Shown: positions 6,483-20,573 of the stretch, piece by piece
Numbering within the stretch: the stretch's first letter is position 1
Layout of the letters: each line of letters opens with the position of its first letter
Source: a virus
Length of the DNA: 20,653 bases
IMG/VR virus record: IMGVR_UViG_3300007540_000159
Span: 1-20,653 of that record
Strand: one strand, 5' to 3'
Program-made: the position numbers and the translations under genes
Notes under the pieces: model-generated
Told to the model about the DNA's origin: nothing
The model's database searches: none
What the model saw: the letters and a program-made list of their open reading frames with translations, nothing else

Positions 6483-6511
6483 ACTATAGTTTTAAATAAT
6501 GAAAAAGTAAA
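6483..6511 (-). promoter_or_regulatory. Sigma70-like promoter of the capsid unit
   Basis: On the minus strand TTTACT (6511-6506) and TATAGT (6488-6483) are separated by exactly 17 bases. The same two hexamers with the same spacing occur before the small terminase gene. The shared stretch is longer than the hexamers: TTTACTTTTT at -35 and TATAGTGAG at -10. The expected start is near 6476, 22 bases before the ATG at 6454, leaving room for AGGAG. Confidence 0.72.
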
Positions 6512-7478: not shown

Positions 7479-7886
7479 TCAGATAAATGCTTTTATTTTT
7501 AACGGATCTCCTGTGACTCTTCCAATTATATCTAAATCATTGAATATCACAAACATTGCTGGGTCTTTACCTTCTACTGGAACTTCCCAACGATCACCGC
7601 CATATTTGGCTACACGAACGAATTCTCCTTCGTTACACCAATCTCCTTCTGGCCAGCTGTCCATCGTATTACGATTCTTAAAAGCCAGAGGACCTTTACA
7701 TATAACCTTGGCCACTTGAGTATTCCATTTTTCAGTATCAGTGGTGTCAGTAGTTAAGATTATACCGCCTGCTGTTTTACTTTTAGCAGTTCTAATTTGA
7801 ACCAGGACACGGCTACCAAAAGGCTGTATTCCAGGATCTACTTCCGGAAATGCCTCTTTTATCGCTTCCTCAGATGTCGTTGTCAC
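7479..7886 (-). CDS. GroES-like co-chaperonin
   Basis: The start is placed at the GTG at 7886 (135 residues), because AGGAG lies seven bases before it, whereas the in-frame ATG at 7901 has no ribosome site and would place AGGAG inside the gene. The protein carries the co-chaperonin layout: QPFGSRVLVQIRTAKSKTAGG, a mobile-loop-like GGIILTTDTTDTEKWN segment (the host GroES loop has GGIVL), QVAKVICKGPLAF, VRVAKYGGDRWEV and VIFNDLDIIGRV. Like T4 gp31 it would cap the host GroEL to fold the capsid protein, and it sits upstream of the scaffold and capsid genes. It lacks an obvious roof hairpin, and the insertion around residues 70-85 is longer than in bacterial GroES. It overlaps the upstream gene by 17 bases. 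Confidence 0.78.
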   Translation of the reverse strand: MTTTSEEAIKEAFPEVDPGIQPFGSRVLVQIRTAKSKTAGGIILTTDTTDTEKWNTQVAKVICKGPLAFKNRNTMDSWPEGDWCNEGEFVRVAKYGGDRWEVPVEGKDPAMFVIFNDLDIIGRVTGDPLKIKAFI

Positions 7887-8067
7887 TATGTTTCTCCTCA
7901 TCTATTAAGTTTAAAAGTACATTGATAGCTTCTTCTAACCCTGCTACCGTTCCCACGAGATACCCGTACTCAAAAATATCACGAGTTTGTGGCTTTTTTA
8001 AAGCCTCAACTGAAAATTCAGTCTGCCGATCTTTCAGCTGACTCAATAACTTATTATTTAATTGCAT
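7870..8067 (-). CDS. Small hypothetical protein, helical
   Basis: A 65-residue protein (MQLNNKLLSQLKDRQTEFS, then YGYLVGTVAGLEEAINVLLNLIDEE) predicted to be two amphipathic helices. Short proteins with DYGRLVG...GL..A...L are frequent in marine phages beside head genes (from memory), with no known function. Its ATG follows the previous stop codon directly (TAAATG), with GGGGGAG about 12 bases earlier, and its 3' end contains the ribosome site and start codon of the co-chaperonin gene, so translation of the two is likely coupled. It might be a chaperone partner or a capsid-assembly accessory, but nothing in the sequence shows this. Confidence 0.6.
   Translation of the reverse strand: MQLNNKLLSQLKDRQTEFSVEALKKPQTRDIFEYGYLVGTVAGLEEAINVLLNLIDEEKHSDNDI
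7894..7898 (-). promoter_or_regulatory. Ribosome binding site that sets a GTG start
   Basis: AGGAG lies seven bases upstream of the GTG at 7886 and inside the upstream gene. It is downstream of the in-frame ATG at 7901, so it argues for initiation at GTG for the co-chaperonin. Confidence 0.6.
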
Positions 8068-8295: not shown

Positions 8296-8505
8296 TTAGC
8301 CTCCTTTCGGCATTTTATTAGTTGGCAAGGACATACCATTAACACTGGCACCCATAGCCATCCGTTTGCGTTGAGGAATATCAGCAGAATTCATATTTAT
8401 ACTTCCACCTTCCTTAAAACCTTCAACATTTCTTCCTTTCAGTATATCTTTCTTAGTAACTTTACCGTCTCCGGTTAAATCAGGAAAAGAACTTTTACTC
8501 TTCAT
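8296..8505 (-). CDS. Small protein with one dockerin-like calcium loop
   Basis: The start is placed at the ATG at 8505 (69 residues, MKSKSSFPDLTGDGKVTKKD...), since GGAG lies seven bases before it. An upstream in-frame ATG at 8520 has no ribosome site. Residues 9-20 (DLTGDGKVTKKD) have Asp, Thr, Asp, Lys/Gly, Thr and Asp at loop positions 1, 3, 5, 6-7, 9 and 12, as in EF-hand/dockerin calcium loops. Only one loop is present, so a folded dockerin pair would require dimerisation. The rest includes GFKEGGS and a C-terminal PQRKRMAMG shared with the next gene. The family is familiar from marine phages but has no known role. It overlaps the upstream gene by 11 bases. Confidence 0.65.
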   Translation of the reverse strand: MKSKSSFPDLTGDGKVTKKDILKGRNVEGFKEGGSINMNSADIPQRKRMAMGASVNGMSLPTNKMPKGG

Positions 8506-9181
8506 TTTCATTCTCCGCATATAAATTATTGAAAACTTGATTCACATCAAGAACGTAGTCTAAATCCGTCTTACTGTGGTGTGCCCACTGAGAAGGACGA
8601 AAGTCTGGTGCTCCTTCACCTGCTTCAAACCAAGCTGGGGAGGTGACCCTGACTCTATTGTTAGGTAGAGCCACTATATTACCTGTCCAATTACCAGCGT
8701 CTAGTAATTCCAAAACATGAGACTGTTTGTGTTGGGCAGGATCGTCTGCTATTTCGCTGTCTGTGTAATCAACAGTGAACATATATTTAGCGGGATAAAA
8801 CTCACCTTCAATTTTAGCCAACCAAGGTGATGGCGAGCATCTGTCAAGTTTATACACACTATGAGTTCTAGATGCGCAATCCCAAGGCTGAGCATTATGC
8901 ACACTCATCGGGTCTGCCCATTCTTCAACTGCCGTATCTGCCACAAGAGCTGTTATAGGCATTCTAGCCCACATAGCTCCCCCATGTACATTAGGTTCAT
9001 CATTGTCATAAGTTTCAGCTCCCGTAAAAATTACTTGGAAGCTCAAACATCTCTCAGGCATGGTGGTGACAGCAACTGCCATCGCGTGTAAAAACTCACC
9101 ATGATACTTCTCATGATTATGTGTGTACTCGCGCCTAACCCAACATTTGAAGTAAGGTATGTTGCTCTGTAAAAATGCCAT
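8495..9181 (-). CDS. Conserved phage protein of unknown function (MAFLQSNIPYFKCW family)
   Basis: A 228-residue protein that I recall as strongly conserved across marine phages without an assigned function. Visible blocks are YFKCWVRREYTHNHEKYHGE, LSFQVIFTGAE, VHGGAMWARMPITALV, QPWDCASRTHSVY, CSPSPWLAKIEGEFYPAKYM and FTVDYTDSEIADDPAQHKQS. The last third has NNRVRVTSPAWFEAGEGAPDF. The many Trp, Cys, His and Asp residues in invariant-looking blocks resemble an enzyme or metal-binding fold rather than a simple structural protein. No known motif fits. It lies between the portal and the small head-region proteins, and its ribosome site (AAAGGAG) is 11 bases past a large hairpin element (9209-9248). 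Confidence 0.75.
   Translation of the reverse strand: MAFLQSNIPYFKCWVRREYTHNHEKYHGEFLHAMAVAVTTMPERCLSFQVIFTGAETYDNDEPNVHGGAMWARMPITALVADTAVEEWADPMSVHNAQPWDCASRTHSVYKLDRCSPSPWLAKIEGEFYPAKYMFTVDYTDSEIADDPAQHKQSHVLELLDAGNWTGNIVALPNNRVRVTSPAWFEAGEGAPDFRPSQWAHHSKTDLDYVLDVNQVFNNLYAENENEE
8513..8516 (-). promoter_or_regulatory. Ribosome binding site that sets the start of the 69-residue protein
   Basis: GGAG is seven bases upstream of the ATG at 8505 and lies within the end of the 228-residue gene. The other in-frame ATGs (8520 and 8511) have no suitable purine site. Confidence 0.5.
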
Positions 9182-9208: not shown

Positions 9209-9248
9209 AATCGTTCGTTCGGTCTATTTCTTAATAGAACGAACGATT
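9209..9248. repeat. Palindromic element copy 1 (ATCGTTCGTTC, 16-base spacer)
   Basis: AATCGTTCGTTC (9209-9220) and GAACGAACGATT (9237-9248) form a perfect 12-base inverted repeat around 16 bases. If CTATT and AATAG also pair, the stem grows to 16 pairs with a four-base bulge and a TCTT loop. The right arm touches the portal stop codon; the left arm is 11 bases from the ribosome site of the next gene. No T-run follows, so it is not a typical terminator. A copy in opposite orientation lies at 16689-16730. Confidence 0.85.
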
Positions 9249-11841
9249 AGGGATTAGGGTTAATTCCACCACCACTGGTGAAGGAAGTTTTCTCATCGTT
9301 TTCCATTTCCATTTCAGCTAATTCCTTAGCTGTGCGATTGTCAGCATCGTTCATACGTTCGCGTGCCGCAAGATCTTCTGCTTTACGACGATCATCACCT
9401 TTCTCTCTAGTGAGCAGTCTATCAGTTTCTGACATCTCTCTGATATTAGTTCTTTCAGTTTCAGCCAACTGCTGTAGGTTCTCTTTTTCAACTTTCTCTC
9501 TAAGATCCCTTTCTTTTGCTCCCATTTTCATTTTCTCAATTTCAGCATCTTGAGCAAGTTTCTGCTGTTGTAGGCTCGACTGAGTTTCTAATTTCATATT
9601 ATCTAATTGAAGTTTGGCATTATCCATCTCTGATCTTTGGGCTAGCTCATTCTGTTTTATTTGAGCACTCATCTGAGCTATCTGCATAGTAGGATCTCTC
9701 TCAACAGGGTCTTTAGGCTTAAATTGTTGGGCAGCTTCATTTAACTGAGAAAGTTCTGTACCGAATCCCGCCAAGGTCTGCTCTATAAACTTCTGCACTC
9801 GTAAAATAACTTCCACTTGTTGAGGTGCGTCATCTTTGATAACACCTTTACTCTGAGCCTTATCAACTGCGTCATGTGCTTCTACTAAATAATAATTCAA
9901 TAGATGATCTTTTAAATGCATAGCCATGGGATATAACATGGTAGGAGTTATAGCTGGATTACTTCCAAATAAGGGAGATTTTAAGAACGGCATATGAACT
10001 TCTAAATGTGCTATGTGATCTTGTTGAGGTAAAACATATATGCCTTGTCCCATAGCTACTGCAACATTTTCACTTACCGGATCTCTGTCTTCTGTTCCAG
10101 GCAGTTGGTTCAATACCTCTGCTCCTGGAACTTTTAATGTCCTTAAGAACATTTCTTCCACAGCCCGTTGATCGTACATCTGAGGCATTTCTTTGGCTCT
10201 ATTCATTATAGCTTGAATCTGAGCAAATCTTTGAGCCTCACTGAATATTGCAGGATTGCTGATAGGAACTACGTCAGAAGGTCCTGCGAAATCTTCAGCT
10301 GCTATAGTTAAACCTGCATCAAGAGCATCGAGCTCTTCTTGAGTATAGTACATGCTATTGATGCGGTGGATAATATTAAAGCTCCTAGCCATCGCTGCAT
10401 GAAGTCTGGAATGTATAGAGCTAAACACTACCATTCCTTGTTCAATAATAGCCATGGTTGTTCCGACCGGAGCGTTAGGATTCTGATCAGCGAACTTTTC
10501 AAAAGAAGTCTGAACAACACCTTTACCAGCGTTTACTAAAAAGCCTAGTAATTGAAATAGAGTCTGGCTAGGTCCTGCAAACGGCAGAGGCATCGCTAAT
10601 TTACGTACGTCATCAATTAACGCTCCTCCTTCCATTTCCACAATCTCAGTCGGTTGCACATTTAAAGTCTGACCATTGGGTCCTCCTTTAAGCTTTAATA
10701 GAGTGGGTACGTTCTGTATATAGGCAGAGTCAAGTAATGCTCTCAAAGCACCTGTCGCTGCTCCGCTCAGTCCCCCGATCATATGAGTCAGTCCGATAGG
10801 GTAGGCTCCGCGCCAAGGTACAAAAGGAAACTCAACCATCCAGTGTAACTCGTTCATACGAGGGTCATCTTCTTCCCAGTTACGATATAATGATAAAGGT
10901 TTATCGGAAGACTTATCAACAGAAAGAATATATGGAGCGAGTCCAGTTTCATCTTCCATATCTAAATACGTGTAAATTTCATATACCGTTCTTAATCCGT
11001 CTTCATTATAAGAATTGTTTTCTTTACCTTCAATTTTCTCATTAGCTTTTTCAGCTTTACTAAACTCTGGGTCATTGGGGCTAGGTAAATCAACATCAGC
11101 ATACATACCTACTTCCACTCGACGCTCATATTCCATACCAGTAATATATTGAACATGAGTTTTACGCTCAGCTGTGTAAAAGTTAGTAGCTGAGAACGGT
11201 AAGTATACGTCATCAATCGGTACGAACTCAGAGGTCGGTCGATTATATTGAGCATTCCACATGTACTTCATATACTGCCCACCACCTAAAGGTAGTTGCG
11301 TACTGAGCTGTTCTAACTCTGAGCGGAATTCAATCATCTGCTCAGTTGTCTGCCAGTTCATAAACTCAGTCTTACGCGCAGCTTTTTCTACTTTAGCTTT
11401 ATCTTGCTCGCCTATCACTTTACTTTTGACAGGTCCTGTGGGAGGAAATATTTCTTTGATGAACCTCGCAGAAAAATCAACGCAAGCTTCCACTAACATA
11501 GGATGTACAACTTTATTAGCACCGCTAAACTGAGCACCTCCTGGAGCGTCATCACCTAATCCTGTACGACGCAACCCTTCTTCGTATTGCTTGTCTCTTT
11601 TTTGGCGAGCTTCTTTATCACGATTGATTTTAGTCAACAGGTCGTTTATAACTTTTTTAAGTTTACCTTGGTCAACATCTTCTACAATATTGGCGAAGTG
11701 CTCGTTACCTTCTTTTACGGTAATAGACTCCATTTTTATCATAGCTCCACCGTCTGCAGTATCTTCAACTTCAAGAGACTCCTCGGGTAGCTCAATCATA
11801 GTCATTTCTTCCTTGACTACTTCTATTTCTTCTTCAGCCAT
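9247..11841 (-). CDS. Portal protein (P22-like, marine phage type)
   Basis: This 864-residue protein is the size of large P22-like portals. The N-terminus (1-70) is acidic. The core starts with QYEEGLRRTGLGDDAPGGAQ, then VVHPMLVEACVDFSARFIKE, IFPPTGPVKSK, FMNWQTTEQM, LEQLSTQLPLGGGQYMKYMW, FVPIDDVYLPFSATNFYTA and later PVGTTMAIIEQGMVVFSSIH, blocks I know from portals of marine podovirus-like phages. The last about 150 residues (from about 715) form a long charged coiled coil that could be the internal barrel of the portal. It forms the dodecameric gate for DNA and docks the terminase. The gene overlaps the 784-residue gene by eight bases, with GGAGG six bases before the ATG. Confidence 0.87.
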   Translation of the reverse strand: MAEEEIEVVKEEMTMIELPEESLEVEDTADGGAMIKMESITVKEGNEHFANIVEDVDQGKLKKVINDLLTKINRDKEARQKRDKQYEEGLRRTGLGDDAPGGAQFSGANKVVHPMLVEACVDFSARFIKEIFPPTGPVKSKVIGEQDKAKVEKAARKTEFMNWQTTEQMIEFRSELEQLSTQLPLGGGQYMKYMWNAQYNRPTSEFVPIDDVYLPFSATNFYTAERKTHVQYITGMEYERRVEVGMYADVDLPSPNDPEFSKAEKANEKIEGKENNSYNEDGLRTVYEIYTYLDMEDETGLAPYILSVDKSSDKPLSLYRNWEEDDPRMNELHWMVEFPFVPWRGAYPIGLTHMIGGLSGAATGALRALLDSAYIQNVPTLLKLKGGPNGQTLNVQPTEIVEMEGGALIDDVRKLAMPLPFAGPSQTLFQLLGFLVNAGKGVVQTSFEKFADQNPNAPVGTTMAIIEQGMVVFSSIHSRLHAAMARSFNIIHRINSMYYTQEELDALDAGLTIAAEDFAGPSDVVPISNPAIFSEAQRFAQIQAIMNRAKEMPQMYDQRAVEEMFLRTLKVPGAEVLNQLPGTEDRDPVSENVAVAMGQGIYVLPQQDHIAHLEVHMPFLKSPLFGSNPAITPTMLYPMAMHLKDHLLNYYLVEAHDAVDKAQSKGVIKDDAPQQVEVILRVQKFIEQTLAGFGTELSQLNEAAQQFKPKDPVERDPTMQIAQMSAQIKQNELAQRSEMDNAKLQLDNMKLETQSSLQQQKLAQDAEIEKMKMGAKERDLREKVEKENLQQLAETERTNIREMSETDRLLTREKGDDRRKAEDLAARERMNDADNRTAKELAEMEMENDEKTSFTSGGGINPNP

Positions 11842-14188
11842 TGTTAGCCTCCATTAATAGTTGTACTGCATTCTTCTTAATTAAATTAGGATTATAAACT
11901 GCTCCACCTTTGGCATATCCTGAGTCACTAACGATAGTGTAAGGATCCATTAATTCAACGAATTCGCTTCTGGTTAAAAACCGAGGTATTTCAACACCGT
12001 CAGCTTGACTCCCTGCAAGCATCGCTTGAAAGCTCTCATCAACTACAGATGCCATGCCTTTGTCAAGCTCTTCTGAAAATATATCCTCTAATTTAGCTTG
12101 AACATGATCGCTGTTTTTCATATCAAATATGCCAAAATCTAATATGTCTTGGGTTCCCCCCATCGTAATGCGGTCTGTAGATATGTCATTTTTATTTTCA
12201 TTCAAAAAAGTTTTTAATGCGCTACCTAATTTAGTTCTATATTGAGGATCTTTTGACATATAGTTTTGAGTTTTCTCAGAAAAGAAACCATTACCTATGG
12301 GCTTAACTTCTCCGAGAACTAATGAACCTCCATCTACGCTATCGTCAATTGTTAAATTCATCTGTATGTGAGGACGACCTTCACCATCAAGCAACGCATA
12401 CAGCCTACTACTTCCGGATCCGTAGCTCTCAGCCATGTTTTTTCCTTGAGTACACCATCCACCAGATTTACCTATAGTTGTACAGACTTTGCCTCCTGAA
12501 TCACTCGCAGCATCAGGCATCTGCACCCAACCGCCACCTTTTTTATCAACAAAACTTAAATCAAAATCAGGTAGATCTATAACTGTGTCAGTATTGGCAA
12601 TGTTATCCAGTAATTCTTTTTTACCAACCTTGTCAGCTTCTTTCATTCTCCAGTCATTAATCTTACTTATTTTTTCTACCATCTGCCGCATGGATATTTT
12701 CTTCAAATCTTTAGGCGATATCTGTAGCTGTCTTGGTAAGCTAGTGTTGGGATCCATGGCGTTTGTAATTTCATCAATCATATGTTGAAAATTTAAATTA
12801 TTAGTTAATGCGTATTCATCTACATCTCTTATAACTGTTTCAGGAGGAACTTTACTCAACCATGGGTTTTCTTCGACTAGCTTTACGACTTTTTGACCCA
12901 TCGCAGATTCACGCATTGGAGTGCCGTCTCCTAAGCTAATGAAATCATCATCCATAAACATATTATAACGATTTAAATACGTGCCCGCAGTTTGCGTGTT
13001 TTGACTAATAGCATCGTCAGCTAGCGTTTCATAGTCTCCTGGTCCTAATGTAAATCCTTCATCTGCGGCAAGCCTGACGCTGTCATTCTTTGAACCCATT
13101 TCATTTAATATGAATTTACGCAGCTTAGTGTTCGTCCAATCTTTTAATGCTTCCGAACTTTCTTCTGTTATTTCATTAAAGTTGATACGTAATTTAGTGA
13201 GGGCATCATCTACTGGCGCAGTGTCTAATATTTGGTCTCCTGGTTCTCGTACTGCTTGCACTATCATACCTTGGTCTAGATACTTCTGCCTTAGCGCATC
13301 ATAAGCTGAATCATCAGGAACTTGAGACGCTGCTTTATTCAAAGCTCTTTTGTTTATAGCATTAATTGCAAGTTCTGAGCCTTTCTGCAGCCCAGTTCCT
13401 AGAGTGCCTCCTATAACTGCCCCAGTTCCCGCACCCTCTAATCTTTCACCTTCTTTTGCCATACCTGCGCCAGCGATGGCTCCTTCGGTTGCCCCTACAA
13501 CACCAGCTGTTCCTAGAGGTCCTAGTCTTCGCGCTCCTATGCTAGCGAGTCGGGCAAGATTACTGCTCGCTGCAGCTGTTGAAGCACCGCCCGTAAAAGG
13601 AGTCGCCACCAACGCTGCTGCGGTGGGTATCAATCCTCCTAATATTTCTCCTGCAAGTGAAGCGTAAGGACTGTCTTCGGAGTAAGCTTCGTTACCTGCT
13701 CTTATTTCCGCCACTGCTTCTTCGTAAGTGCTCTCGCCTAATTTAGATCTAACCCATGCTTCAGCTTCGTCGCCCCAACCTAATAATAAACCTTGGCCTA
13801 TAACATTACGAGCTAGATCTACGGGTCCTCCGGTTTCAACCGCTCCACCCTCAGCTGCTTTCCATTTCACCTTGTCTGCCCAATAAGCTGCAGACGACTT
13901 ACCTTTAGCGATATTTTTCGCGTGGCGGTCTTTAAAAGCTTTCCGCTGCTTAGGGTTCTGGTTTGTCTTCGCTCCTTGCTCTCCGAACCTGATCATCTTA
14001 TCTTTGCCATCCACTTTTGTCTTTACGACATGGGAGCTGCTAGGATGGCTAGGTGTTCTGCGCGGTGTGTCTAGTTCCAAAGAATCTTTTAATGATTGAC
14101 CACCCTTAGAAAAACCTTTTACTATTCTATGTAAATCTAAATCTATTTCACCCGTAATGGGATTTATTATCATGTCTTGTTTCGCCAT
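11834..14188 (-). CDS. Large multi-domain virion protein with W-C-T module, function unknown
   Basis: The 784-residue protein has distinct parts. A basic module at about 52-110 (KMIRFGEQGAKTNQNP, QRKAFKDRHAKNIAKGK, SSAAYWADKVKW) resembles a short domain seen in other phage and viral proteins. Residues about 175-275 are Gly/Ala-rich and hydrophobic (GEILGGLIPTAAALVATPF, GAGTGAVIGGTLGTGL), like membrane-active parts of ejection proteins. A helical middle holds NPWLSKVPPE (about 439) and KISMRQMVEKISKINDWR (about 500). A conserved module at about 555-660 has CTTIGKSGGWCTQG (W578-C579-T580) and LYALLDGEGRPHIQMN (596-611). It ends in a KGGAVYNP tail. It lies between the membrane protein and the portal, fitting an ejected internal virion protein (inference). 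The enzyme-like module is unassigned. Confidence 0.7.
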   Translation of the reverse strand: MAKQDMIINPITGEIDLDLHRIVKGFSKGGQSLKDSLELDTPRRTPSHPSSSHVVKTKVDGKDKMIRFGEQGAKTNQNPKQRKAFKDRHAKNIAKGKSSAAYWADKVKWKAAEGGAVETGGPVDLARNVIGQGLLLGWGDEAEAWVRSKLGESTYEEAVAEIRAGNEAYSEDSPYASLAGEILGGLIPTAAALVATPFTGGASTAAASSNLARLASIGARRLGPLGTAGVVGATEGAIAGAGMAKEGERLEGAGTGAVIGGTLGTGLQKGSELAINAINKRALNKAASQVPDDSAYDALRQKYLDQGMIVQAVREPGDQILDTAPVDDALTKLRINFNEITEESSEALKDWTNTKLRKFILNEMGSKNDSVRLAADEGFTLGPGDYETLADDAISQNTQTAGTYLNRYNMFMDDDFISLGDGTPMRESAMGQKVVKLVEENPWLSKVPPETVIRDVDEYALTNNLNFQHMIDEITNAMDPNTSLPRQLQISPKDLKKISMRQMVEKISKINDWRMKEADKVGKKELLDNIANTDTVIDLPDFDLSFVDKKGGGWVQMPDAASDSGGKVCTTIGKSGGWCTQGKNMAESYGSGSSRLYALLDGEGRPHIQMNLTIDDSVDGGSLVLGEVKPIGNGFFSEKTQNYMSKDPQYRTKLGSALKTFLNENKNDISTDRITMGGTQDILDFGIFDMKNSDHVQAKLEDIFSEELDKGMASVVDESFQAMLAGSQADGVEIPRFLTRSEFVELMDPYTIVSDSGYAKGGAVYNPNLIKKNAVQLLMEANNG

Positions 14189-14189
14189 A

Positions 14190-14429
14190 TTAACTTCCCC
14201 CGCTCAAGACGCGGTCTAACTTGTCTTCAACTCTATGTAATGCATCTAATACGCTTTTCATATCGTCGCGCATTTCTTTGCGGGTTACGTAATCTTCTCG
14301 CGTGCGATTTAATAATATGTCTATTCTTTTTAATTCACTCATCATTGAGCGGAATGTCCATAGTGCTGGTGCTATGACTAAGGTGAGTATGATATTCCAG
14401 ATCAACATAGAACTAAGTTCTGCTTCCAT
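14190..14429 (-). CDS. Small membrane protein with coiled coil
   Basis: A 79-residue protein with one hydrophobic segment (about 8-25, MLIWNIILTLVIAPALWTF), then a charged amphipathic helix of about 50 residues (SELKRIDILLNRTREDYVT, MRDDMKSVLDALHRVEDKLD). The short N-terminus suggests N-out or N-in single-pass insertion with the coil on the other side. It is reminiscent of small proteins next to terminase genes in marine phages that are sometimes labelled holin- or spanin-like. No lipobox, signal peptidase site or partner lysis gene is present in the window. It stands 11 bases after the terminase stop and one base before the next gene. A lysis role is possible but unproven; a virion membrane-contact role is equally possible. 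Confidence 0.6.
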   Translation of the reverse strand: MEAELSSMLIWNIILTLVIAPALWTFRSMMSELKRIDILLNRTREDYVTRKEMRDDMKSVLDALHRVEDKLDRVLSGGS

Positions 14430-14440
14430 CGTGCATTCCT

Positions 14441-16030
14441 CTATACCGCATAAGGGTTTACATTTTCTACCAGCCTGAGCTGAGGTTCGTCCATATCTCT
14501 AGCTTGAGGTAAATCAAAGAAACCATCATTTTTTAAATAAATTATCGCTTGTGTAAATGTATCTACATAATCGTCATGTGCGCCCACTGGGAATTTAGAG
14601 AGCTCTTTTATAAATGGCTGTGCCCATGAAACAGCGTGTCCTGGAGTTTTCTTAGACTCTGGTATCCACACTAAACCTAATTCAAGAGTAGGAGCTGCTT
14701 GATGAGCACGACTCACCTTGTCGGCATTTCCTGGGTTATACGGTATGGCGGGAACCTTAGCAAGACGTAAGTCTTGCAAAAGAGATTGGCCACTCGCCTT
14801 CGCCTCGACGAGAATCCTGTCGGGACGTTTTTTCCTACTGAACGGAGAATCCTTACTCATACCGCCATACTCAGTTCCCCACTGTTTTATCGCCTTCGCT
14901 CTAAGGTCAGGGTATGCTAAGTGTTCATCCCATGCATCTATTAACATGACATGGCGTGCTCCGTCATGGGTGAATATAGCCCACACTGTACATGCAGTGG
15001 GGTCACCTGTTGACTTTTCTGTAAACGCACAGTCATAACTCTGCAAGATGTACTCGAATGGTGGCAGACCTGTGTTGTGCGGCCAAAGTTCAAAATACTG
15101 AGTCTTTAATATACCACCCTCCGATGGAGTGGGCTCCTGTTGTAACTGACCAGCTGAACCATAAGCACCCAATAATTTTTTCAAATCAGCTATTTCATCT
15201 TCCCCGAATCTATCGGGACATATGAGTTCGCCTTTTTTCTGTCTTGGATCATATGGACCCACACTGGTTTTTCTCCTAACACCATCCCATTCTGCGGGTA
15301 TCATTAGGTGCTCCCACCCTCCAATGTCATCTATTATATGACCACTTATGTCTCTCTCATGTAAACGCTGCATGATAGTGACCATGACATCAGCCTTGGG
15401 ATCATTCAAACGAGTAGACCAAACAACGTCAAACCATTCAAGAGCTGATTCACGGATAGCATCTGATTGAGCTTCCTGTGCAGAATGAGGGTCATCAAGT
15501 AATAACCTTGAACCACCCTCACCTGTCGCAGTACCACCTACCGATGTTGCTAGGCGATATCCTGTTTTATCATTCTCATATCTCTGTTTAGCGTTTTGGT
15601 CTCCGGCAAGCCTAAACATGTGACCCCACCTATCTTGATACCAAGGGGATTGTATCAGCCGTCTGGCTTTTAGGTTGTCACGAATGCTTAGGTTGCCGGA
15701 GTAACTGGCGCACAAAAACTTTTGAGCTGGATCTGTTAGCCATTCCCACATAGGCCACATGACGGAAACGATCGTAGATTTGGAATGGCGTGGTGGTATG
15801 TTGATCAGCAGCTTCCTCAGATCCCCTCCAGAACACGCTTCAAGGTGCTCACAGATTTGCTCTATGTGCCAGCCACCAATGAATGGCACTCCAGGCTCTA
15901 CGACATGCCAGGACTGCCTAACGAACTCATAGAGGGACGCCGCAGCATTGCGTCTTTCTTTCTCCTCCTTCAAGAGGTCCAGCATGACAGCTGGGGAAGT
16001 AGTGGAAGAAGAGGCAGACATCTGATTCAT
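14441..16030 (-). CDS. terL: Terminase large subunit
   Basis: The 529-residue protein has both terminase domains. ATPase: Walker A-like PPRHSKST (79-86), the FLCASYSGNLSIRDNLKARR segment, TATGEGG (167-173) and Walker B LLLDDP (176-181). Nuclease: SYDCAF with Asp333, VEAKASGQSLLQDL with Glu409, and HDDYVDTFTQ with Asp486/Asp487, which supply the metal-binding acidic residues. It translocates DNA into the prohead through the portal and cuts concatemers. Its ATG overlaps the TerS stop (ATGA), with GAGG seven bases upstream. The length is normal for the family. The type of packaging (cos or pac) cannot be told from the sequence alone. Confidence 0.95.
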   Translation of the reverse strand: MNQMSASSSTTSPAVMLDLLKEEKERRNAAASLYEFVRQSWHVVEPGVPFIGGWHIEQICEHLEACSGGDLRKLLINIPPRHSKSTIVSVMWPMWEWLTDPAQKFLCASYSGNLSIRDNLKARRLIQSPWYQDRWGHMFRLAGDQNAKQRYENDKTGYRLATSVGGTATGEGGSRLLLDDPHSAQEAQSDAIRESALEWFDVVWSTRLNDPKADVMVTIMQRLHERDISGHIIDDIGGWEHLMIPAEWDGVRRKTSVGPYDPRQKKGELICPDRFGEDEIADLKKLLGAYGSAGQLQQEPTPSEGGILKTQYFELWPHNTGLPPFEYILQSYDCAFTEKSTGDPTACTVWAIFTHDGARHVMLIDAWDEHLAYPDLRAKAIKQWGTEYGGMSKDSPFSRKKRPDRILVEAKASGQSLLQDLRLAKVPAIPYNPGNADKVSRAHQAAPTLELGLVWIPESKKTPGHAVSWAQPFIKELSKFPVGAHDDYVDTFTQAIIYLKNDGFFDLPQARDMDEPQLRLVENVNPYAV

Positions 16031-16620
16031 TGAGAGTCCTCAATCTTCTTCATCATTTTAGTCATGCTTTCAATTTCATCGTCGCTGAGGGATTTCAAGT
16101 CTACTGCCGCTAACTGTATCGGACCTCCGTCCTGCCCTGTGTGCTCAGTGTGTAGCTTGTCCCCGTACACCTTGGGCAGCATCTTACTAAGCATCCACTT
16201 GCGGCTATCAATGCGCAGTCGGTTACGCTGAATGGCTTCACTTGACAGCGGAACCTTTACTCGTCTTTGCAGCCTCATCCCGTCTCCGTCAACGACAGGG
16301 ACGCCAGCTTCGTCAACTACATCCTCTTCAATTGTTGTGTAGTTTTCATCACTGATTGAAAGTATTTCATCAGCTATCATTCTGTATCCAGCTTCACGCG
16401 CGAGCGCGTACTGCTCGGCTAAGGCTGGCTCAGTGGAGATCCAGTCCAGAATCTGGCTAGAAGTCGGAGCCTCGGGAACTATGCCGCAAGCAGCAGTCAG
16501 ACTCATACCGTCTTGAAGCAGAGGGAGAAGAGCACTCATGATAGCCTGACGGTCATGCTTCCTAGCTCCAGGACGTATCTTAACGACCTTAGGTTCCTTC
16601 TTCTCATCGTCTTCAGACAT
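16027..16620 (-). CDS. terS: Terminase small subunit
   Basis: The start is taken at the ATG at 16620 (197 residues, MSEDDEKKEP). GGGGAG lies six bases before it and a promoter start is expected at about 16645, so the longer frame to 16716 would begin upstream of the mRNA. Residues about 20-75 form helices fitting a DNA-binding helix-turn-helix (MSALLPLLQDGMSLTAACG, TSSQILDWIST). The C-terminal half has the family signature KWMLSKMLPKVYGDKLHTEH followed by TGQDGGPIQL, and a helical tail. It recognises the packaging site and passes DNA to TerL, whose gene overlaps its stop by four bases. The palindromic elements just upstream are candidates for sites it or another phage protein recognises (inference). 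Confidence 0.88.
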   Translation of the reverse strand: MSEDDEKKEPKVVKIRPGARKHDRQAIMSALLPLLQDGMSLTAACGIVPEAPTSSQILDWISTEPALAEQYALAREAGYRMIADEILSISDENYTTIEEDVVDEAGVPVVDGDGMRLQRRVKVPLSSEAIQRNRLRIDSRKWMLSKMLPKVYGDKLHTEHTGQDGGPIQLAAVDLKSLSDDEIESMTKMMKKIEDSQ

Positions 16621-16651
16621 TAAAGACTCCCCTACTTCTAGTTTGCAACTC

Positions 16652-16680
16652 ACTATACTTCCATTCATTAAAAAAGTAAA
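16652..16680 (-). promoter_or_regulatory. Sigma70-like promoter of the packaging/portal unit
   Basis: TTTACT (16680-16675) and TATAGT (16657-16652) on the minus strand are 17 bases apart, identical in hexamers and spacing to the promoter at 6483-6511. The palindromic element at 16689-16730 starts nine bases upstream of the -35 box, where an activator or repressor would bind. The expected start is near 16645, 25 bases before the small terminase ATG. Confidence 0.72.
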
Positions 16681-16688
16681 CAGGAAAG

Positions 16689-16730
16689 TAATCGTTCGTT
16701 CTATTAGAGAGTGCAACCGAACGAACGATC
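16689..16730. repeat. Palindromic element copy 2, upstream of the terminase promoter
   Basis: TAATCGTTCGTTC (16689-16701) and GAACGAACGATC (16719-16730) are inverted around 17 bases. The reverse complement of this copy matches copy 1 (9209-9250) arm for arm: ATCGTTCGTTCGGT on one side and an 18-base identical TAATAGAACGAACGATTA on the other, while the spacer differs. The copies are therefore in opposite orientation. Confidence 0.85.
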
Positions 16731-16754
16731 AACCTGAGAACCGTCTGACCGACT

Positions 16755-16786
16755 ACGGAGAGAGGCAGAAATGCCCTCTCCTCCGT
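16755..16786. other. Long hairpin between two palindromic elements
   Basis: ACGGAG (16755-16760), AGAG and GCA pair with TGC, CTCT and CTCCGT (to 16786), giving 13 pairs with two single-base bulges (C75, C80). The loop is GAAA on the plus strand and TTTC on the transcribed strand. No T-run follows, so it is not a standard terminator of the primase transcript. It could be an RNA processing site, an origin structure or a recognition site. It sits in the only long non-coding gap of the window. Confidence 0.7.
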
Positions 16787-16797
16787 CCCTCGAGCGG

Positions 16798-16844
16798 TAA
16801 TCGTTCGGTCGGCACGATGGTTTGAACGATTACCCGAACGATCA
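16798..16844. repeat. Palindromic element copy 3, shorter, with extra half-site
   Basis: TAATCGTTC (16798-16806) and GAACGATTA (16824-16832) form a perfect nine-base inverted repeat around 17 bases, the same spacing as copy 2. A further half-site CGAACGATC follows at 16835-16843. It lacks the second GTTC in each arm. It lies seven bases past the primase stop codon. Confidence 0.75.
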
Positions 16845-16850
16845 ATCACT

Positions 16851-18965
16851 TTACACCGCATATTTACCTCTTTCAACTGACTCTTCCACACCCAAATCAA
16901 CCTGTAAATAGTGGTTAGCTCTACCGACAGGTTTATCAAGCATCACCTTCTCAACTCTACCTGAGCTGATCAGGTTATCAATGGCTCGCTCCTTACGTTC
17001 CTGACTAGCTTTAACCCCACCATCAGCCATGCTCTTACGCTCGTAGTAGCTACGACTCTTACCAGGATCACACTTGATGAGAGTGACGAGGTCATCGCAG
17101 ATGCGCTCCCACTGTTCCGACTCTTTAGCGTCTTTAATCTCTTCTTTAAGTTGTGCACGTTCGCCAGCTTGGAGCACCCGAGCCACTGAGTGCATGAACC
17201 AGATGTCTGCATCGTATCCTAGGACGTTTTTGTGTTCTTCTTTGTTCGTGACCACATCGAACGTAAGCTCTGGAAAGGTCGTAGGAAAACGAACCTTAGT
17301 AGCCTTAAGAATGCGAGGTGCATGATTATCATCCCCGTCTTTAAATACTGTATAAACCCCATGTGCATCTCCCGTCCAAGCAGACGCTCCTCTAGGAGAG
17401 AGATAGTCAGACTCACCCGATCCCAAAACCTTTGCGGTGTGGCTGACGATGATAACCGGAAAACCCAAGAAAGACTGTTTGATATACGCCATTGCACGCC
17501 CGACCTGAGCATTGTCATTTTCGTTTTCAAGATCAAATACTGCGTTTGCAGTGTCAAACACAACGAGTGGTAGAGCGTCGTAAGTTTCGCCATTAGCTTT
17601 TTCATTAGGTGTCGTCCATTCTTTATATTGTTCCGCTACTTGCGCAACTATTTTAGGGTCTAACCTATGCGCTTGAATAACCTTAACCCTCTGCTCGAAG
17701 TCTTCAGGTCGCATACCAGTCATGCCCCAGTTACACAGAGAGTATATCACCCTCTGCACCTGTACTACAGATTCAGTTATAATTATTACATTACGCCTGA
17801 CGAGCGGTCTCAGTTCAAACTCAACAGGACAGAGATGAGCAGTGGCCAGAGCCATAGGTATTATTAAAGTAGTCTTACCCACTCCTGGAGCACCAGCTAC
17901 CACGTTAACACCAGTAGACATGAAGTCATCAAAGATGTACTCAAAGACTGTAACTTCACGTGCACCGGAATGTGACGAGGCTTCTAAAGCTAACGGATGA
18001 TCCCCTTCAAGTATCACCTCAGCTTCCTTGCTGTACTTTCCTACCCAGCCATTGTCAATAGCCATCTTGAATATACTGCGGTAAGTAATTGAATGAGGAT
18101 TGTCAATGTCTCGCTCCCACTTCTTACGCTGGTTAGCAGCATCAAATTTGTCAGAACCTGAACTCCACTCAGTCCAGACTTTATAACCGTTCTCTCCGTA
18201 TGGTTTCAATGCTGTACCAACATTAACCCAAGTGGTATAATCATCAGCATCAACATACTTGAGAGCATCACGCAAGTCATCAAACGTCTGAGCAGTAGCA
18301 ATAGGTGTACCGTTTTTCTCAGTCAGAGAGTAAGTAGCAGGAGCTCTCGCTTTACTTTTAATCAAGTCAGGTAGTTGGGAAGGTTTAACAGGGTTAGACT
18401 TACTCAAAGGGGAGCTAGCCACCTTCCATTTATAATCACCACTCACACCCAAGGTAGGTGCAACGCATATGTAACCATGATGCTTGAGGTCTAAACCTTT
18501 ATCAAGAGTTCCAGGATAAGACATGTCAGGATCAGCTTTAAATATACGATGCTCCCCACCTCCTTGAGTCTTAGCTACACATTCGGAGTGTAAAACACCG
18601 TGCTCAGCCTCTAAACGGGAGAGAGACTCCTGTCCGTCATTCTGAGGGTCAATGTCAAGCGCAATAAGACCTGAGTGTGCAAGGCTGACACCAATCCCTG
18701 CGTTGGGGTCAGTAGACCACCATTCTTTTATAGTCTCTTCACTTATAGTAGCGTCATGATGACCATGCGGTGTCAATGTAGATTGAGGATGCTTTCCTGG
18801 CTTATGACCTGATTCATTGTTAGGTCTGCCGCAACGACAATCACCATTATTATCAACAGACCAGACAGGCAGCACATACCACCCAAGTTTAGCATAGGCT
18901 AGAGCGTAATCTAGGGTGCTTGGCTCATCTTCAACAGCCCATATGTGCTTAGGAGTCTTTGCCAT
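16851..18965 (-). CDS. Primase-polymerase fused to RecA/RepA-type ATPase
   Basis: The 704-residue protein has an N-terminal prim-pol domain (about 15-210): ALAYAKLGWYVLPV, a CRC...PGKHP segment with C43 and C45, the catalytic pair in LIALDIDPQNDG (D104, D106) and KTQGGGEHRIF (H139). A middle region (about 225-310) reads like the helical PriCT-type linker (YVDADDYTTWVNVGTALKPY). The C-terminal ATPase has Walker A GAPGVGKTT (358-366), Walker B LPLVVFDTAN (D471) and VIIVSHTAK, as in RepA/DnaB-related hexameric helicases. A winged-helix-like tail ends it. It would prime and unwind DNA at the fork. The gene starts directly after the helicase stop codon (TAAATG), with GGGGAG eight bases upstream. 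Confidence 0.85.
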   Translation of the reverse strand: MAKTPKHIWAVEDEPSTLDYALAYAKLGWYVLPVWSVDNNGDCRCGRPNNESGHKPGKHPQSTLTPHGHHDATISEETIKEWWSTDPNAGIGVSLAHSGLIALDIDPQNDGQESLSRLEAEHGVLHSECVAKTQGGGEHRIFKADPDMSYPGTLDKGLDLKHHGYICVAPTLGVSGDYKWKVASSPLSKSNPVKPSQLPDLIKSKARAPATYSLTEKNGTPIATAQTFDDLRDALKYVDADDYTTWVNVGTALKPYGENGYKVWTEWSSGSDKFDAANQRKKWERDIDNPHSITYRSIFKMAIDNGWVGKYSKEAEVILEGDHPLALEASSHSGAREVTVFEYIFDDFMSTGVNVVAGAPGVGKTTLIIPMALATAHLCPVEFELRPLVRRNVIIITESVVQVQRVIYSLCNWGMTGMRPEDFEQRVKVIQAHRLDPKIVAQVAEQYKEWTTPNEKANGETYDALPLVVFDTANAVFDLENENDNAQVGRAMAYIKQSFLGFPVIIVSHTAKVLGSGESDYLSPRGASAWTGDAHGVYTVFKDGDDNHAPRILKATKVRFPTTFPELTFDVVTNKEEHKNVLGYDADIWFMHSVARVLQAGERAQLKEEIKDAKESEQWERICDDLVTLIKCDPGKSRSYYERKSMADGGVKASQERKERAIDNLISSGRVEKVMLDKPVGRANHYLQVDLGVEESVERGKYAV

Positions 18966-20544: not shown

Positions 20545-20573
20545 ACTATAGTTTTATTTCCGTAAAAAAGCAA
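20545..20573 (-). promoter_or_regulatory. Sigma70-like promoter of the replication unit
   Basis: TTGCTT (20573-20568) and TATAGT (20550-20545) on the minus strand are 17 bases apart, the same architecture as the other two promoters with a different -35. The expected start is near 20538. The leader carries a direct repeat GTTATC-A-GTTATC (20527-20539 on the plus strand) across it, which may be an operator. Confidence 0.6.

Follow-up and report, generated by a model that had tools for sequence, protein, structure and literature searches.

Putative iteron-and-hairpin replication origin between the prim-pol and terS genes of a group of uncultured tailed phages

Three palindromes with ATCGTTC arms lie between the genes of a 20,653-nucleotide stretch of viral DNA (IMG/VR record IMGVR_UViG_3300007540_000159, referred to here in its entirety as the window), and their presence raises the question of which protein reads them and for what purpose. 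A preliminary description had offered a regulator operator, an origin and a site for the small terminase (TerS) as candidates. We found that an origin fits best, that an operator is its main rival and that TerS is to be rejected as a general explanation. The palindromes at 16691-16842 are probably half-site repeats in a replication origin, which would be bound by the winged helix of the primase-polymerase/helicase (prim-pol) encoded next to them.

Palindromes of the window and the module in the prim-pol-terS gap

The 20.7-kb window is a fragment of an uncultured tailed phage. Its main genes are all on the minus strand and were found by Pfam to include a DEAD helicase, prim-pol/helicase, terS, terL, portal and capsid, among others. 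The closest cultured match of its TerL was Roseobacter phage CRP-901, at 44% identity. Many relatives were present in IMG/VR (137 prim-pol contigs, of which 80 were retained), and nearly whole contigs were examined; these contigs are metagenomic and mutually related, and the p-values given below are therefore descriptive. No gap similar to that between prim-pol and terS was found in cultured phages, the closest match in bacterial genomes was 53% identical over part of prim-pol, and a sequence search of solved structures revealed no relative. The features discussed are as follows.

9209 to 9250, no strand assigned: copy 1, near-perfect palindrome over the portal stop codon, found in the closest clade only
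16027 to 16620, minus strand: terS, terminase small subunit of Sf6 type (PF20901, E 3e-25), the downstream neighbour
16652 to 16680, minus strand: sigma70-like promoter for terS, TTTACT-N17-TATAGT, 10 bases past palindrome A
16689 to 16731, no strand assigned: copy 2 (palindrome A), ATCGTTCGTTC-N17-GAACGAACGAT with flanks, kept in relatives
16745 to 16794, minus strand: conserved 50-nt hairpin, GC-rich, between copies 2 and 3 (covariance model match of 76 bits)
16800 to 16842, no strand assigned: copy 3 (half-site cluster C), directly 3' of prim-pol, with place and layout kept in relatives
16851 to 18965, minus strand: prim-pol (Pfam; DNA primase by PHROGs)
16890 to 17048, minus strand: predicted winged-helix core of prim-pol, about residues 640-692, the proposed iteron reader (AF2 model, PDB matches)

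The pattern ATCGTTC-N(10-30)-GAACGAT matched the window exactly three times (9210-9247, 16691-16729 and 16800-16842, the last with an inner pair at 16800-16830) and was not found in 100 shuffles of it, bearing out the earlier view that palindromes at three sites were not due to chance. The spacers, described as conserved in length, measured 16, 17 and 17 bases, and the 18-base stretch reported to be shared by copies 1 and 2 was exact (9232-9249 vs 16689-16706); the two stretches are oppositely oriented, such that the minus strand of copy 2 reads like the plus strand of copy 1. The intergenic location claimed for all three copies holds once terS is started at the ATG at 16620 (MSEDDEKK); we judged the TTG start at 16716, which overlaps copy 2, to be a wrong call of the mechanical open reading frame list.

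What did not stand was the treatment of the three copies as one element. Copies 2 and 3 belong to a single origin-like module, located in the 230 bp that separate prim-pol from terS, and copy 1 is a stray after the portal gene. Copy 3 proved to be a small cluster of half-sites and not a single palindrome, with ATCGTTCG at 16800, a degenerate inner copy at 16824-16830 and ATCGTTCG on the minus strand at 16835. In gene direction, the module consists of the ATCGTTCG half-site cluster, the 50-nt hairpin, the ATCGTTCGTTC palindrome, the sigma70-like promoter and terS. Its half-site, the 8-base ATCGTTCG, is present as both inverted and direct repeats, and relatives with this iteron carry 3-12 exact copies each within about 450 bp, often as TAATCGTTCGGTTTAATCGTTCGGGTAATCGTTCGAACGAT; such clusters, in which a short site is repeated in both orientations, are those of iteron-type origins.

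Across 19 genomes or fragments including the window, with GC contents of 34-58%, 138 of the 153 ATCGTTCG copies were located in this one gap (16.1 per kb vs 0.017 per kb elsewhere). Among the 15 copies outside it, four were in the copy-1-type sites of G001/G002 and two in copy 1 of the window. This concentration in one gap supports the suggestion of a two-fold symmetric protein-binding site outside genes, and the arms were kept as sequence over this range of GC. The reading of palindrome A (TAATCGTTCGTTCTATTAGAGAG) as a T7-class promoter, appealing on visual inspection, leaves the direct and inverted repeats unexplained and was set aside; a search for phage RNA polymerase (PF00940) gave 0 matches in 17 contigs, as it also did in the control genomes.

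The module adjoins the prospective initiator gene, lying directly 3' of prim-pol in the window and many relatives. The cluster begins at most about 100 bp from the 3' end of prim-pol in the window, G001, G048, G025, L234, L254, L285 and L286, and the module is 1-6 kb from prim-pol in G003, G015 and G010. The position of the terS promoter was similar in most relatives, not all. Promoter-like sequences of the form TTTACTTTTT-N13-TATAGT were detected on the minus strand of the window at 6483-6511, 16652-16680 and 20545-20573 (the third with 3 mismatches), compared to 0.57 expected.

Copy 1, which shares bases with the portal stop codon TAA (9249-9247), is inverted relative to copy 2 and has an inner palindrome. 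It was found after the portal gene only in the window, G001, G002, L005, L007, L017 and L036, which form one subclade; in L007, L017 and L036 the start of the palindrome inside the stop codon is also kept. Possible roles for this copy are an accessory initiator site, a decoy, a control site and an mRNA hairpin; under the origin model it would be a secondary binding site of one subclade, in any of the first three roles.

Several other features of these phages were observed. A GroES-type co-chaperonin lookalike, recognised by eye only, is encoded at 7479-7901 (minus strand) and is present in every relative compared. Small proteins encoded at 2506-2769 and 8296-8520 (both minus strand) contain repeats rich in glycine and lysine, such as KGYSKGG, and this motif also occurs in small proteins of relatives. 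The TerL of G017 (L177) is interrupted after its PPRH motif by an intein-like insert. The 101,830-base record IMGVR_UViG_3300047121_000347 (G022; L208, L209) contains prim-pol, iteron cluster and hairpin twice each, and is either a chimera or two phage genomes within one record.

Association of the module with prim-pol, conservation of the hairpin and replacement of the iterons

The module was present in all 37 prim-pol contigs that hold the gap (34 plus G038, G049 and G028). Two comparisons separated its inheritance from that of the terminase. G010 and G020 are 66-67% identical to the window group in prim-pol and 68-69% in DNA polymerase, and only 40-44% in TerL; their TerS is unrelated to that of the window group (for G010, phrog_309 vs phrog_1482), yet the module was kept. 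By contrast, seven contigs with TerL 78-80% identical and no prim-pol (G006, G009, G013, G029, G033, G034 and G035, some of them fragments) had neither the iteron cluster nor the hairpin. G011 has the module and no detected prim-pol; this contig extends only about 350 bases beyond the cluster, and in G007 prim-pol is located at that place. Since the module is kept with an unrelated TerS and absent without prim-pol, it belongs with replication and not packaging.

Recognition of the module by TerS as a pac or cos packaging site is thus highly improbable. Repeated boxes near terS are known for the pac and cos sites of SPP1 and lambda, and here too the module is directly upstream of terS in most relatives; unlike those sites, it does not go with its terminase or follow TerS/TerL identity, and the persistence of the site in G010 beside a TerS of another family rejects TerS as the general reader. 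Each end of the G002 contig carries a part of the prim-pol gene, suggesting a map that is circular or circularly permuted; this also speaks against a packaging site in the gap.

The hairpin comprises an outer stem, a 3x3 internal loop (GGA / GTA) and an inner stem with one bulged base; the loop recurs in most hairpins as GGA against GTA, GGA, GCA or AAA. For the 13 hairpins that could be aligned (a MAFFT alignment of all hairpins was poor for the distant ones), 92.7% of cells were paired and six pairs had changed on both sides. Covariation of these stems exceeded that of all slides and all 500 shuffles (0/500 as high). Of 40 contigs searched with a covariance model, 26 had a match, one for each replicon and without exception in the gap; the seven contigs without prim-pol had none. 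Additional matches were found in L254, L234, L285, L260 and L235, and analogous folds, missed by the model or outside its run, in G017, G043, G052, G038, G049 and G028.

Covarying stems would also suit a transcribed RNA element (3' UTR hairpin, small RNA or attenuator) of which the palindromes would be further hairpins, and the portal stop codon is immediately followed by a near-perfect hairpin, copy 1. This explanation appears very doubtful, as the palindrome arms are conserved as sequence, in direct and inverted repeats, over GC contents of 34-58%; no Rfam match was obtained and no U-tract terminator was seen at the elements. In G010 and G020, moreover, the unit of cluster, hairpin and palindrome has the opposite orientation with respect to terS and is flanked by outward-pointing promoter-like sites, so the module is probably a DNA element rather than a terS leader.

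When iterons were sought de novo as clustered 8-mers, with the motif left unused, other prim-pol phages were found to have iterons in the equivalent gap. Their sequence differs by lineage, and the layout (repeats, hairpin, repeats and usually a promoter) remains constant. The first six entries below are from this search.

G036: iteron AACGTTCG
G007, G011: iteron ATGTTCGG
G017: iteron AATGCCCGG
G043: iteron AAAGCCCGG
G052: iteron CCTAAATAAG
G025: iteron TAATCGTTTGG
L234: iteron AATCGTGTG
L254: iteron ACCGTGTG
L286: iteron ATCAAGTG
L285: iteron TAACGGGT
G038: iteron ATCAGTC
G049: palindrome arms ATTGTTTG
G028: palindrome arms CCGTTTG

In a prim-pol tree built without the C-terminus, G017/G043 and G052 were nested in the ATCGTTCG group with moderate support, and iterons have therefore probably been replaced more than once.

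Prim-pol as the candidate reader

The domains of prim-pol are Prim-Pol (PF09250, residues 21-193), PriCT_2 (232-302), AAA_25 (342-512) and a predicted C-terminal winged helix. The last was modelled by AF2 from the C-terminal 144 residues (pLDDT 87; elements H78-83, H95-108, E111-120 and E123-129), and the model matched winged helices of the PDB with Z of 8-9; the full-length model (pLDDT 55) was too poor for use.

Eight replication proteins were first compared for columns conserved in ATCGTTCG/AACGTTCG phages and changed in all four other lineages. Such columns made up 4 of 25 conserved columns in the winged helix vs 2 of 1,308 elsewhere (p 1.4e-6). A strict code of winged-helix residues, strong in this first set, was partly contradicted by further phages: L235 has the ATCGTTCG iteron despite changed winged-helix residues; conversely, most of the residues in question are unchanged in L254 and L286, whose iterons differ. 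Iteron distance was moderately correlated with winged-helix distance (partial correlation r 0.36, p 0.006); a higher value, 0.51, was obtained for AAA-domain residues 391-430. Taken together, these comparisons of sequences suggest that prim-pol is the likeliest reader of the iterons.

An apparent thymidine hypermodification operon, with an amino acid:DNA transferase, 5-hmdU DNA kinase parts, a thymidylate-synthase-like protein and a YfbR-like HD protein, is present in most ATCGTTCG phages (L119:4490-8908 in G001, and equivalents) and missing from G017, G007 and G006. Operon and site co-occur in all site-bearing complete genomes, and both are absent from G017, G007, G006 and G009. A reader encoded in this operon was rejected as a rule, as G052 has the operon but the CCTAAATAAG iteron.

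Origin model, its main rival and known systems

We propose that prim-pol, encoded immediately upstream, would bind the half-sites through its C-terminal winged helix and assemble on the iterons that flank the hairpin on either side. The ATPase ring of the protein would open the DNA at the module, the hairpin would form on the exposed strand and act as single-stranded DNA, and the prim-pol domain would then prime synthesis. Third-position GC skew displayed no clear switch at the module and follows the direction of transcription; GC/AT skew lent the model no support.

The main rival, an operator region, has a phage activator or repressor acting on the half-sites to time the terS/late promoter in an early-to-late switch, the hairpin being a piece of regulatory DNA or of transcript. 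The module is always upstream of terS or its positional equivalent, and a sigma70-like promoter follows the last half-site by 10-15 bases in the window, G001, G003, G012, G015, G037, G010 and G020 and at other distances in G004, G030 and G022b, but no clear promoter was found in G039, G040, G042, G047, G048 or G025. G010 and G020 can be argued both ways: a position between two outward promoter-like sites would suit an operator, and the flipping of the unit would not. The replication genes included no recognisable, conserved candidate for a regulator, although a small unannotated gene could encode one, and a conserved hairpin with covarying stems is unexpected for an operator. On balance we regard an operator as unlikely. 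Origin function and regulation of the terS promoter through palindrome A may coexist.

The proposed mechanism is best read, by analogy, as joining two known schemes, that of P4 alpha, which binds iterons, and that of pRN1, whose origin has a stem-loop. The required second iteron site of phage P4, away from its ori, is crr; copy 1 may be a counterpart in one subclade. As in P4, a primase-helicase has a C-terminal winged helix (predicted here). The ATPase domain of prim-pol is AAA_25, which we take to be RecA-like.

The pRN1 protein ORF904 comprises a prim-pol, a helicase and a winged helix, and depends on a stem-loop located 3' of the gene that encodes it (Berkner et al. 2014, PMC4234260). The phages described here similarly combine these three parts in one protein, the winged helix by prediction, with a stem-loop directly 3' of the gene. 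They differ from pRN1 in that Pfam assigns AAA_25 (342-512) where pRN1 has an SF3 helicase, and in that iterons flank the hairpin, whereas pRN1 has none. The pRN1 authors propose an equivalent scheme for phage BIP-1, the protein of which likewise carries PriCT_2 (PMC4234260). P4 alpha binds iterons by a C-terminal winged helix and is a Toprim primase (PMC4234260), by contrast to the archaeo-eukaryotic prim-pol (PF09250) found here. Membership in either type is therefore incomplete, with the primase type differing from P4 and the ATPase type from pRN1. At oriV of RSF1010, RepC iterons are accompanied by ssi hairpins that serve RepB' as priming sites (PMC4234260); this plasmid is alike in principle in having iterons plus hairpins, and differs in using three separate proteins and paired ssi hairpins instead of one protein and one hairpin. 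The binding motif of pRN1 was never identified (PMC4234260), but clear iterons flank the hairpin beside the pRN1-like prim-pol described here.

With at least ten natural iteron variants in dozens of contigs, recognition, melting and priming of the pRN1 type become testable, and the module serves to mark, at the sequence level, the proposed origin in a phage group without close cultured members. More tentatively, this large group of uncultured phages may have kept layout and hairpin frozen while the iterons of each lineage were swapped together, along with the winged helix that reads them, in the manner of plasmids escaping incompatibility. If so, origin specificity would count among the diversifying traits and would determine which phages replicate one another's DNA during co-infection.
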